A DNA stretch of 64,000 nucleotides from Cellvibrio sp. PSBB006. Its GTDB lineage: Bacteria > Pseudomonadota > Gammaproteobacteria > Pseudomonadales > Cellvibrionaceae. Under the pieces are notes generated by a model. The model had not been told where the DNA came from, did no database searches, and saw only the letters and a program-made list of their open reading frames with translations. A program made the position numbers and the translations under genes. Positions 7,181-29,945 of the stretch are shown piece after piece; position 1 is the first letter of the stretch, and the number at the start of each line of letters is the position of its first letter. The stretch spans positions 2,602,001 through 2,666,000 of the forward strand of contig NZ_CP021382.1 of NCBI RefSeq assembly GCF_002162135.1. The letters run 5' to 3'.

Positions 7181-7687
7181 TCAATAAAACAATCTACTCA
7201 TTCCCCACCGTCTCCGGCAAATCCACCTCTCCCCCCAATCCTCGTCATAAAATCCCAACTCAACAAATTTACGAAAACTTGAATGCGGCCATTGCGCGGG
7301 TGTTTGTGTATAACCGTGTTTTACCGGATTGAAATGAATGTAATCCAGGTGCTGGCGATAATCCCTTTCGTCGCGAATCAAATGTTCCCAAAAACGGTTT
7401 TGCCAGATGGGCAATGGTTGTCCGTAAGCTTTCGCAAAACCACTTTTTATCAACCGCCAACGTGTTGAGAAATCGTCATCGTGGGCGGGTAAAGTCCAAA
7501 TGCAATGGAGGTGGTCGGGCAGGATGACGGCGGCGTCGATATCGAAAGGGTAATTGCGTTTTATGCGCTTGAAGGTTTGACGCAGCAGGAGAACAACATC
7601 GGGATGATTAAAGATGGGGTTGCGTTCGTGGGTGACTAGAGTGAAAAAATAACAGCCACCGTTGTGCAGGGCTCTGCGGTATTGCAT
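7181..7687 (-). CDS. REP-associated tyrosine transposase (RAYT)
   Basis: A 168-residue Y1 single-strand transposase domain protein. PDHLHCIW gives the HUH metal-binding pair (His59, His61). The catalytic tyrosine lies in ERDYRQHLDYIHFNPVKHGY (Tyr110 or Tyr116). RAYTs are domesticated relatives of IS200/IS605 TnpA that act on REP hairpins, and REP palindromes sit on both sides here (7139-7168 and 7761-7843). An AAAGGA ribosome site precedes the start. The last 18 residues (ERWICRRRWGM...) look out of frame: one more G in the six-G run near 7237 would give DWGGEVDLPETVGNE and a stop, a more typical acidic ending. So the gene may carry a late frameshift that leaves the catalytic core intact. Confidence 0.88.
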   Translation of the reverse strand: MQYRRALHNGGCYFFTLVTHERNPIFNHPDVVLLLRQTFKRIKRNYPFDIDAAVILPDHLHCIWTLPAHDDDFSTRWRLIKSGFAKAYGQPLPIWQNRFWEHLIRDERDYRQHLDYIHFNPVKHGYTQTPAQWPHSSFRKFVELGFYDEDWGERWICRRRWGMSRLFY

Positions 7688-14922: not shown

Positions 14923-15539
14923 TGGACGCCACCCTCTCCACGGCGGCTCTCGCCGGACTGGAAAAGCTCATCAACACCGCCCTGCGCTATGATCCGGGCA
15001 CCCGCATCGCCTTGACGAGCCTGGCCGATCAGGTACTGGCCATCCAGGTCACCGCGCCGGCATTTACGGTTTACCTCACGCCCGACGACGCGGGTATTTG
15101 CCTCATGGGCCATTGGGAAGGTGAAGTCCATACCCGCTTGCGCGGCTCCCTGCCTGCCCTGGCGCGCCTTGCACGCAGTGAACAGACGACCTTTGCTGAC
15201 AGTGGTGTAGAGGTGATTGGTAACACGGGGTTGCTGGTGGATTTGCAGCGCCTGCTGAAAAATCTGGATATCGATTGGGAAGAAGCGTTGACGGAAATTG
15301 TTGGCGATGTGGTGGGACACCAGGGCGCGGAGATGCTGCGCAGCGGCGCGCGTTATACGCAGGATCGTGCCGGTGAAGCGAAGCGTTTGGTGAGTGAGTT
15401 TTTGACCGAAGAACTAGGCACATTACCTTCCAGAAATGAATTGGAAGGGTTTTATCAGGATGTGGATGATCTGCGGTTGCAGGCGGATCGTTTGGAAGCG
15501 CGGATCAAAGAGTTTTTACAGCACGGCAAAAACGGTTGA
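14922..15539 (+). CDS. ubiJ: Ubiquinone biosynthesis accessory factor UbiJ
   Basis: A 205-residue protein with an SCP2-like lipid-binding N-terminal domain (about 15-115; APAFTVYLTPDDAGICLMGHWEGEVHTRLRGSL) and a helical C-terminal half (DDLRLQADRLEARIKEFL) likely to form a coiled coil. UbiJ binds the lipid part of quinone intermediates and organises the soluble Ubi complex with UbiK. The start is fixed by the one-base overlap with the ubiE stop. Its position between ubiE and ubiB is conserved. A 102 bp palindromic element follows its stop, before ubiB. Confidence 0.92.
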   Translation: MDATLSTAALAGLEKLINTALRYDPGTRIALTSLADQVLAIQVTAPAFTVYLTPDDAGICLMGHWEGEVHTRLRGSLPALARLARSEQTTFADSGVEVIGNTGLLVDLQRLLKNLDIDWEEALTEIVGDVVGHQGAEMLRSGARYTQDRAGEAKRLVSEFLTEELGTLPSRNELEGFYQDVDDLRLQADRLEARIKEFLQHGKNG

Positions 15540-15545
15540 TGGTAT

Positions 15546-15647
15546 GGGATCGGGTGAAGGCGGGGGAGACACGCCGTAAATACATCCCTGTAGGCTCAAC
15601 ACCCGCATCCCTGCGGGTGATGGTCTCCCCCACCTTCACCCGATCCC
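15546..15647. repeat. Variable-arm palindromic element, copy A
   Basis: Left arm 15546-15570 and right arm 15623-15647 are complementary at 24 of 25 positions. The core between them (15571-15622) reads ACGCCGTAAATACATCC... and holds a hairpin around ACACCCGCATCCCTGCGGGTG. Inner arm ends are GAC and GTC, as in the other two copies at 29407-29508 and 29708-29811. The outer arm sequence is unlike theirs. It begins six bases after the ubiJ stop and 67 bases before the ubiB start, inside the ubi operon. Confidence 0.85.
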
Positions 15648-28820: not shown

Positions 28821-29388
28821 AACACCCGTTCGCTGCGGCTGGTGCGGCACGGATGAACTCTATTGCCAGTACCACGATGAGGAATGGGGCGTGCCGGTTT
28901 ACGACGATCAGAAGATGTTTGAATTTCTGATGCTGGAAGGCGCCCAGGCGGGCTTGTCGTGGATCACGGTGCTGCGCAAGCGGGAGGCTTATCGCAAGGC
29001 GTTTGATAATTTTGATCCGGTCAGGATTGCCCGTTACAGCGAGGCGAAGAAGGCGAAGCTGCTGTTGAATCCCGGCATCATCCGTAACCGTTTGAAGATT
29101 GAGAGTGTGGTGCGCAATGCGCGGGCGTATCTGGATTTGCAGGAACAGGGGGAGAGTTTCAGCGATTTTCTGTGGCAGTTTGTGGGTGGTAAGCCGAAAC
29201 AGAACCGGCGCCGTACCCTGGCGGATATTCCGGCGTCGACGCCGGAGTCGGATGCGATGAGTAAGGAGTTAAAAAAGCGCGGGTTTAATTTTGTGGGCAC
29301 GACTATTTGTTATGCGCATATGCAAGCGACGGGGATGGTGAATGATCATTTGATCAGTTGCCATCGTTACAAAGACTGTGCGGATTAG
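28756..29388 (+). CDS. tag: DNA-3-methyladenine glycosylase I
   Basis: A 210-residue base-excision enzyme removing 3-methyladenine. The N-terminal RCGWCGTDELYCQYHDEEWGVPVYDD and the C-terminal NDHLISCHRY supply the zinc-binding Cys and His residues. MLEGAQAGLSWITVLRKREAYRKAFDNFD is the family core. The start overlaps the regulator by 65 bp; about 26 extra residues precede the conserved CGWC. Start choice is therefore uncertain, with no better ATG nearby. Two palindromic elements lie downstream. Confidence 0.93.
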   Translation: MSNTTNKPTNATSKKSPSLSSKTPVRCGWCGTDELYCQYHDEEWGVPVYDDQKMFEFLMLEGAQAGLSWITVLRKREAYRKAFDNFDPVRIARYSEAKKAKLLLNPGIIRNRLKIESVVRNARAYLDLQEQGESFSDFLWQFVGGKPKQNRRRTLADIPASTPESDAMSKELKKRGFNFVGTTICYAHMQATGMVNDHLISCHRYKDCAD

Positions 29389-29406
29389 CTTTTTTTCTTG
29401 TGGTCA

Positions 29407-29508
29407 TGGATTCCGTTGTACCCTCCGGGACTCGCCGTGAACCCATCCATGGGGGCTCATCACCGGCATCCTTGCCGGCGATGGTCCCGGAGGGTACAAC
29501 GGAATCCA
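29407..29508. repeat. Variable-arm palindromic element, copy B
   Basis: Left arm 29407-29431 and right arm 29484-29508 are perfect complements over 25 bases. The 52-base core (29432-29483) begins TCGCCGTGAACCCATCC and holds two hairpins, one around CCCATCCATGGGG and one around CACCGGCATCCTTGCCGG. It starts 18 bases after the tag stop. The core differs from copy C at one position, while the arms are unrelated to those of copy C. Confidence 0.9.
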
Positions 29509-29707
29509 CTCTGGAAGTTCGGTGCGAACGGCTGGGGTTAAAAGCGTTTATTAGGGAATAATGCCCGTGGCACTAGGGCCTGTGCATAAAGTCAGATTTG
29601 CATGAAATAATCTGTTTAATTGCAAAAAAGCAGTACGGAAATTTCTCCTCACCGGCTATACACCATGCGCTTTTTTAAAAGTCACGCTGTGGCACAAATG
29701 TCGCAGA

Positions 29708-29811
29708 ATGGGTTTCGGTGTTGGGTCCGAGACCATCACCGGCAAGGATGCCGGTGATGAGCCCCCATGGATGGGTTCACGGCGAGTCTCGGACCCAACA
29801 CCGAAACCCAT
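29708..29811. repeat. Variable-arm palindromic element, copy C (inverted)
   Basis: Left arm 29708-29733 and right arm 29786-29811 are perfect complements over 26 bases. The core (29734-29785) is the reverse complement of the copy B core with one change. It lies 200 bp from copy B in opposite orientation. The 29509-29707 spacer and 29812-30088 show no ORF I can support; they are AT-rich. Confidence 0.9.
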
Positions 29812-29945
29812 GACCCCACCTAAAACAAGCCATTAAAACGACAAAAAAAACCGTCAAAATCCCGCCTATATTTCCACTCGAAGTAAAACCAGTTCAAAAA
29901 ACCAGCAATAAAAACAAAACAATCTATTAACGCTCTATTAGCAAA

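Follow-up and report, generated by a model that had tools for sequence, protein, structure and literature searches.

Each of the CsrB, RsmX, RsmY and RsmZ sponges comes from one dedicated sRNA gene and offers many sites, presented as several GGA hairpins per RNA. The consensus for CsrA/RsmA binding is given as (A/U)CANGGANG(U/A) in the available part of PMC6692469. TwoAYGGAY (RF01731; Weinberg 2010) is a predicted sRNA, proposed to bind CsrA (Gardner and Eldai 2014; PMC4333381), with a poorly conserved outer stem and two hairpins with GGA loops. Another Rfam family, Ysr224 (RF02770), is listed among the 20 most prevalent sRNAs (available part of PMC9029176) and is reported as multi-copy, with differing expression, in Yersinia ruckeri (available part of PMC12112432). 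The available portions of the Ysr224 literature hold no account of it as a class-wide repeat.

REP/BIME repeats with RAYT, according to the available parts of PMC3733652 and PMC2817692, are intergenic palindromes, multi-copy, found in inverted pairs and located mostly downstream of genes. The TIRs of the TIRYT genes of Stenotrophomonas maltophilia are self-complementary and often paired (available part of PMC3733652). The element described here is like both in these respects and occurs in the same genomes as the TIRs. However, it has no GTAG or CGTC head, it contains two internal hairpins and long arms, and at about 102-104 bp it is outside the 20-40 bp of a REP. The repeats flanking two TIRYT genes are GGGGTCAGATCCCTTTCGC.. 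and GGGGACGGAGGGGATTAAGTCG.., not the present element. The BoxC/triplex repeat was also considered and rejected, as its consensus in the available part of PMC4666352 differs. Parts of PMC2699552 and PMC11701678 were drawn on as well.

The window, that is, the whole stretch of 64,000 nucleotides of the Cellvibrio sp. PSBB006 genome that was analysed, contains three palindromes (copies A, B and C, Table 1) with an internal three-way junction, at the positions that an earlier note on this DNA had assigned to them. The arms pair as described there, completely in B and C and with one unpaired cell (C.A) in A. The core, from GAC to GTC, is indeed 58 bp long with two hairpins, and the B and C cores differ at a single base. 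On both strands of all three copies the fold energy is 10 to 13 standard deviations below that of dinucleotide shuffles (z -10 to -13), and the palindromes are real, well past chance expectation.

Table 1. Features of copies A, B and C, with the strand on which the GGA sequence is read.
Feature	Position	Strand	Remarks
Copy A, whole element	15546..15647	-	GGA (structured) strand is the minus strand
Copy A core, GAC..GTC	15568..15625	-	R1 80.6 bits
Copy A hairpin P2 loop site	15583..15590	-	CAGGGATG on minus strand, fits CANGGANG
Copy A hairpin P3 loop site	15606..15613	-	CAGGGATG on minus strand, fits CANGGANG
Copy B, whole element	29407..29508	-	
Copy B arm, P1 stem side 1	29407..29431		pairs 25/25 with 29484-29508
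Copy B arm, P1 stem side 2	29484..29508		pairs with 29407-29431
Copy B core	29429..29486	-	R1 83.6 bits
Copy B P2 loop site	29444..29451	-	CATGGATG on minus strand
Copy B P3 loop site	29467..29474	-	CAAGGATG on minus strand
Spacer between inverted pair B/C	29509..29707		
Copy C, whole element	29708..29811	+	GGA strand is the plus strand; inverted pair with B
Copy C arm, P1 side 1	29708..29733		pairs 26/26 with 29786-29811
Copy C arm, P1 side 2	29786..29811		pairs with 29708-29733
Copy C core	29731..29788	+	R1 86.6 bits
Copy C P3 loop site	29743..29750	+	CAAGGATG
Copy C P2 loop site	29766..29773	+	CATGGATG

Copy A is located between ubiB (start 15715) and an ORF ending at 15539, which we take to be ubiJ from its operon position. 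Between copy B and its neighbour there are 18 bp, counted from the stop codon of a DNA-3-methyladenine glycosylase gene (ends 29388). A consensus scan of 29350-29880, which covers B and C, found no sigma-70 promoter and no intrinsic terminator, and identity of the element with either was rejected. The lack of a promoter match near B and C counts against its being a CsrA-binding transcript.

A, B and C are three of 48 strong copies in the PSBB006 genome, and the palindromes represent a large dispersed family of structured elements of gammaproteobacteria. With the B core as query, blastn located 30 places in this genome of 5.26 Mb. From the 28 cores that were aligned (several variant or truncated blastn forms fell outside the pattern, which in turn added one or two copies), a covariance model, R1, was built. 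R1 matched the same genome 95 times, with a score of at least 57 bits in 48 cases. A search of many genomes with a covariance model of the 58-bp core, the check proposed in the earlier note, uncovered a dispersed family. R1 matches are present in 20 of 21 genomes of the genus, including PSBB006 itself, and in 53 of 274 sampled genomes of the Gammaproteobacteria, where 20 candidates were scored per genome and copy numbers are therefore lower bounds. In a sample of the phylum, 17 of 249 genomes had matches, with only two outside the class, both single and marginal (E 2e-4 and 8e-4). With the best 150 candidates scored per genome, the S. maltophilia strains SJTL3, D457 and E301 gave 136, 114 and 111 matches, and Xanthomonas euroxanthea and X. 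hortorum at least 149 and at least 150, respectively. A pattern scan of named genomes yielded at least 118 stretches, and those listed include Cellvibrio, Stenotrophomonas, Xanthomonas, Rheinheimera, Marinobacter, Methylomonas, Shewanella, Yersinia and others. Among the matches listed, the titles are, by our reading of them, all gammaproteobacterial or too coarsely named to tell. Plasmid and phage collections gave no match to the B core with part of the B arms. Literature searches with exact core strings found no paper, those combining CsrA with repetitive extragenic palindromes found nothing, and those combining RsmA with repetitive elements found nothing on the present element; any impression of an undescribed repeat comes from these and further searches.

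Read on the strand that carries GGA, the core has the order P1 - P3 - P2 - P1, a three-way junction with the arms as its closing stem. Covariation in the core is 0.363, as opposed to 0.164 in shuffled alignments, and none of 500 shuffles reached as high a value (28 cores; kinship alone can exceed such shuffles). This GGA strand is the opposite of the one quoted in the earlier note, here called the TCCN strand: the family recognized there is real, but the strand quoted is the less informative one.

The two strands differ in the mismatches found in their arms. Of 218 candidates, 186 have 17 or more of 24 Watson-Crick matches in their arms (the 32 below this limit were left out), and in these 186 copies the TCCN strand has 199 A.C mismatches but only 20 G.T. 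Counted per copy, 103 lean to A.C, 9 lean to G.T and 74 tie (p = 2e-21, copies not all independent), and the bootstrapped A.C share, subject to the same dependence, is 0.909 (0.864-0.948). The A.C:G.T ratio is 29:2 in PSBB006, 52:4 in the genus, 109:12 in other genomes, 4:2 in SJTL3 and 5:0 in D457. On the same strand there are 102 pyrimidine-pyrimidine and 21 purine-purine arm mismatches. An A.C mismatch on one strand becomes a G.U (or G.T) when the opposite strand is read, and the excess thus shows that it is the GGA strand alone that tolerates G.U wobbles, and thereby that selection acts on the GGA strand as a single strand. The asymmetry shows one favoured strand and would fit RNA or strand-specific single-stranded DNA alike; most simply, the selected single strand would be RNA. 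The Rfam model of Ysr224 is written on the TCCN strand, which counts against the GGA strand as the working strand.

If the favoured strand were DNA, the element could be a mobile one that moves as single-stranded DNA, its hairpins being read by an HUH-type or other transposase, as in REPs and IS200/IS605, with G.T wobbles tolerated in that strand. The strand-specific wobble would fit such a mechanism, as would the high copy number, the differing presence and absence between species and a REP-like avoidance of divergent gaps, which hold 5 of 48 single copies but make up 30 of 128 background intergenic gaps of at least 120 bp. However, 12 genomes were searched for Y1 transposase genes, and the 17 loci present in 8 of them all lack a strong core within 1.5 kb; the top-scoring core match near them has 18.7 bits and lies inside a neighbouring gene region. 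In four genomes with 13-50 element matches, no Y1 gene reaches E <= 0.001. Nor do the two halves of the genome differ in element orientation in the three genomes compared, with base 1 taken as the origin; two of these are Stenotrophomonas genomes in which the positions of 46 of 136 and 37 of 114 matches were used. The loops, in addition, fit a known RNA-protein site instead. Overall, movement as single-stranded DNA appears unlikely. Mobilisation by RAYT or TIRYT was rejected because no strong core stands beside the 17 Y1 loci and the TIRYT genes are flanked by other repeats.

The window does include the sole Y1_Tnp match of the genome at E <= 0.001, a RAYT-like gene of 168 aa at 7181-7687 on the minus strand. 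It is flanked by GTCGGATTACGC palindromes, a sequence with 7 matches in the window (at most one mismatch) versus 0.31 in shuffles, and is unlinked to the present element.

A conserved core with weakly conserved, internally matching arms is a general property of the family, as the earlier note had described it. The further claim that the arms share no sequence between copies does not hold. The left arms of B and C, compared in register and without GAC, are the same at 15 of 23 positions, those of A and B and of A and C at 8 of 23 each, and mean pairwise arm identity among 46 PSBB006 copies is 0.455, compared to 0.278 for shuffled letters. In SJTL3, where 560 kb contain 34 copies whose core is 52 nt long, six of these carry one identical 20-nt arm and four carry another, so that arms common to several copies, which the note had taken as evidence against its own view, do occur in some copies there. 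Arms also look alike by eye among Rheinheimera copies and among Xanthomonas copies.

The histories of core and arms are nevertheless separable, as had been proposed. In PSBB006, core and arm identity are uncorrelated (r = -0.04), and two copies with identical cores have arms that are 50% alike; in SJTL3, core identity weakly predicts arm identity (r = 0.30). Orthologous sites were compared between 560 kb of SJTL3 and 598 kb of D457, which are about 90.6% identical as judged from the first 200 kb, where the aligned blocks sum to 149 kb. Of 36 SJTL3 elements, 27 could be compared, 7 were absent from D457 and 2 had no anchors; 5 of 32 D457 elements were unmatched. Module replacement was called at an identity threshold of 0.85, which is our own choice, and at 3820818 the replacement is a borderline call. 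Conserved arms were seen at 18 sites, 11 of which had kept the whole element, while 7 had a replaced core module (P2 only in four, P3 only in one, both in two). Where the arms differed, at 9 sites, 8 also had a replaced module, one of these borderline. It follows from this comparison that whole elements and single hairpin modules have both been exchanged, with the flanks unmoved.

Five of the seven sites absent from D457 were inspected (3531215 and 3733107 were left out). None of the five held a palindrome without a core, and none held a whole single arm; at three, all that is left is the outer flank with a remnant of arm, as if the rest had been deleted. At some seemingly absent sites there is a diverged core within the same or similar arms. 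As a test of the element as a MITE, the sites lacking it resemble deletions, with no clean empty site on which to judge target duplication.

Several other arrangements were observed. The P2 hairpin occurs in a short form and in longer forms of about 75-80 nt at the same site in SJTL3 and D457, within the same arms (L235-L254, L292-L329). In Alishewanella longhuensis (L207), two copies 451 bp apart have identical arms and represent a direct duplication with the arms included. Just outside the arm, the right-hand flank on the TCCN strand carries a partly conserved, lineage-specific motif, GTGCCAT in many PSBB006 copies and CTTCGACAGTTTCC-like in Stenotrophomonas. A tandem array (L330:3288-4652, G479:C1) consists of six 227-bp units, each with one element and a GTAGGAGCGGCTTCAGCCGCGA repeat, and one strand of it would hold 12 core hairpins consecutively.

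At one arm position of this array, two copies have A.C, one has A-T and three have G-C; at another position, one copy is an exception of the G.T type. Such stepwise intermediates are relevant to the mechanism put forward in the earlier note, in which DNA-level processes at each site must generate the arms or correct them, by template switching, by insertion into an existing palindrome or by copying of a flank. Near-perfect arms that do not correlate with core identity in PSBB006 would be expected of it. However, a correction of that kind is blind to strand, and the A.C:G.T ratio is 10:1; together with the array intermediates, the arms common to several copies and the lack of core-less palindromes or whole single arms at all five absent sites, this makes the mechanism very improbable. 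We consider it highly likely, on the other hand, that the family is a structured element specific to one strand, in which two GGA hairpins are fixed, the stem drifts freely and modules are exchanged.

On the GGA strand, both hairpin loops fit CANGGANG in the 28 aligned cores, which were chosen regardless of their loops, and the element thereby has paired hairpin loops of the type seen in CsrA/RsmA-binding RNAs. The two CANGGANG sites have 12 fixed letters, none of which varies in these cores; of the four N positions, three vary and one (column 40) hardly does, and the P3 loop is one N short in 3 of the 28. The later search pattern fixed the P2 loop and left the P3 loop free, and in 185 of 186 copies the P3 loop has GGA inside it or at most 2 bases away. 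In a P3 variant, agAGGGACct (3 copies), the closing pair is flipped and ANGGAN is kept. A wider pattern gave 231 short forms, for which 465 apical loops were predicted, 393 of them with GGA and 0 with TCC. For 18 long forms the figures were 34 of 68 for GGA and 3 for TCC, and the fact that about half of the long-form loops lack GGA counts against CsrA binding. Six long forms in PSBB006 have GGA in 3 of 3 loops (three forms), 2 of 3, 1 of 2 and 1 of 2.

Compared with CsrB, RsmX, RsmY and RsmZ, the present element has two sites per unit, many units and a long closing stem. Two other observations weigh against CsrA as the partner. A near-perfect outer stem of 25 bp is unlike CsrB or RsmZ. In addition, four element-bearing genomes, one of them (G221) 98% complete, have no CsrA above the cut-off. 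Overall, CsrA is present in 49 of 53 genomes with the element and in 186 of 221 others (p = 0.19, tallied by eye), and co-occurrence is uninformative.

At Rfam gathering scores there was no match in the window, in 14 loci or in 2 more, and when copies were scanned at the models' own cut-offs only one Yersinia copy and one viral-contig copy were marked. Both belong to Ysr224 (cut-off 70 bits): the Yersinia proxima copy L124 scores 94 bits and the viral-contig copy L234 scores 134, while copy C reaches 16.9 and the PSBB006 copy L020 reaches 35.8 of 70. The core sequence is the same, although the Ysr224 model is on the TCCN strand and has Yersinia arms, and Ysr224 is a Yersinia form of the present element.

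The element also has the layout of TwoAYGGAY, an outer stem with two hairpins with AYGGAY-like loops on one strand, in the same order, and the alignment of copy C shows similar junction letters (AGCC, CGGCG). However, the second hairpin is shorter, the element is dispersed in tens to more than 100 copies, and its scores of 36-41 bits stay below the cut-off of 43. B (36.2, in one scan only) and C (36.4) were matched on the GGA strand, with both hairpins and the junction aligned, and whole-genome searches gave 14 matches in 3 of 5 genomes, the best 41.3 and all below the cut-off; six other loci had no match at E <= 0.01. The unrelated model of a long-stem microRNA precursor, mir-3199, reached a similar E-value of 5e-4 on L118, and the TwoAYGGAY likeness is weak, no stronger than such a chance long-stem match. 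Among candidate RNAs the element is of a known kind, represented here by a variant that is highly dispersed.

A sister family is present in the same genome and accounts for about 40 of 47 weaker R1 matches (G000:C1; e.g., L288, L290, L291, L335-L368). It has a core of 46-47 nt with 30-bp arms on either side, and in 36 copies collected the mean identity is 0.649 for the arms and 0.944 for the cores (29 of the 36 with a 46-nt core). The pattern used fixed the first hairpin and left the second free, and 4 of 34 places fetched did not match it. All 36 copies have a second hairpin that fits CANGGANG when the GGA strand is read; on the other strand the motif is present in none. The arms contain 29 A.C and 1 G.T cells, mostly at one inherited site, and neither these cells nor the first hairpin are counted as independent support. 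Together, the two families have at least 84 counted copies in PSBB006.

The position of the copies relative to genes was determined for 48 single copies (31 from PSBB006, 17 from Stenotrophomonas and Xanthomonas) with crude, codon-scored gene calls. Eighteen are between genes in the same direction with the TCCN strand as sense, 10 between such genes with the GGA strand as sense, 15 between convergent and 5 between divergent genes. Paired copies are inverted in 36 of 38 cases. The copies are mainly located at gene 3' ends, often as inverted pairs.

It is conceivable that the element is a 3'-end RNA element, such as a stabiliser, a processing site or an antisense site, that acts through its stem, with the GGA loops put to some other use. 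This would agree with its start 0-49 bp past the stop codon in 13 of 14 PSBB006 singles of the same-direction, TCCN-sense class, and with the Ysr224 transcripts reported in Yersinia (available part of PMC12112432). However, a gene ends ahead of the element in the TCCN sense at 33 of the 48 singles (crude gene calls), so that the GGA strand would be antisense to that gene, and it is this antisense strand that the wobble favours. There is also no terminator-like tail at B and C, and fixed CANGGANG loops in two families are left unexplained. Such a role seems rather improbable.

The reading that we prefer, at a probability of roughly 0.5, is that the element is transcribed and binds CsrA/RsmA. 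Its working form would be the GGA single strand, most likely RNA, in which the outer stem P1, made by the arms, closes a three-way junction and two hairpins each present GGA in a CANGGANG loop as the recognition site for a CsrA/RsmA dimer. With two sites per element, one dimer could bridge both. The arms would serve as stem only, for which any pairing sequence suffices, and would thus be free to undergo compensatory drift through G.U wobbles, with loops and junction fixed. Hairpin modules are exchanged, probably by recombination between copies. Copies bound by CsrA/RsmA might act as scattered decoys or as local regulatory sites.

A more far-reaching suggestion, and a doubtful one, is that many gammaproteobacterial genomes contain a physiologically relevant, genome-wide dispersed Csr/Rsm sponge of two-site RNA modules. 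There would be dozens to more than 100 modules per genome, with hairpin domains that swap while each site retains its own stem. If so, global Csr activity would depend on which intergenic regions are transcribed and would be tied to read-through at gene 3' ends. If the GGA strand does bind CsrA/RsmA, copies in which the core was swapped and the arms were kept would supply a natural data set on the recombination of short structured repeats, an abundant intergenic repeat would gain a function, and the capacity for Csr titration would be set also by scattered repeats, beyond the few dedicated sRNAs.
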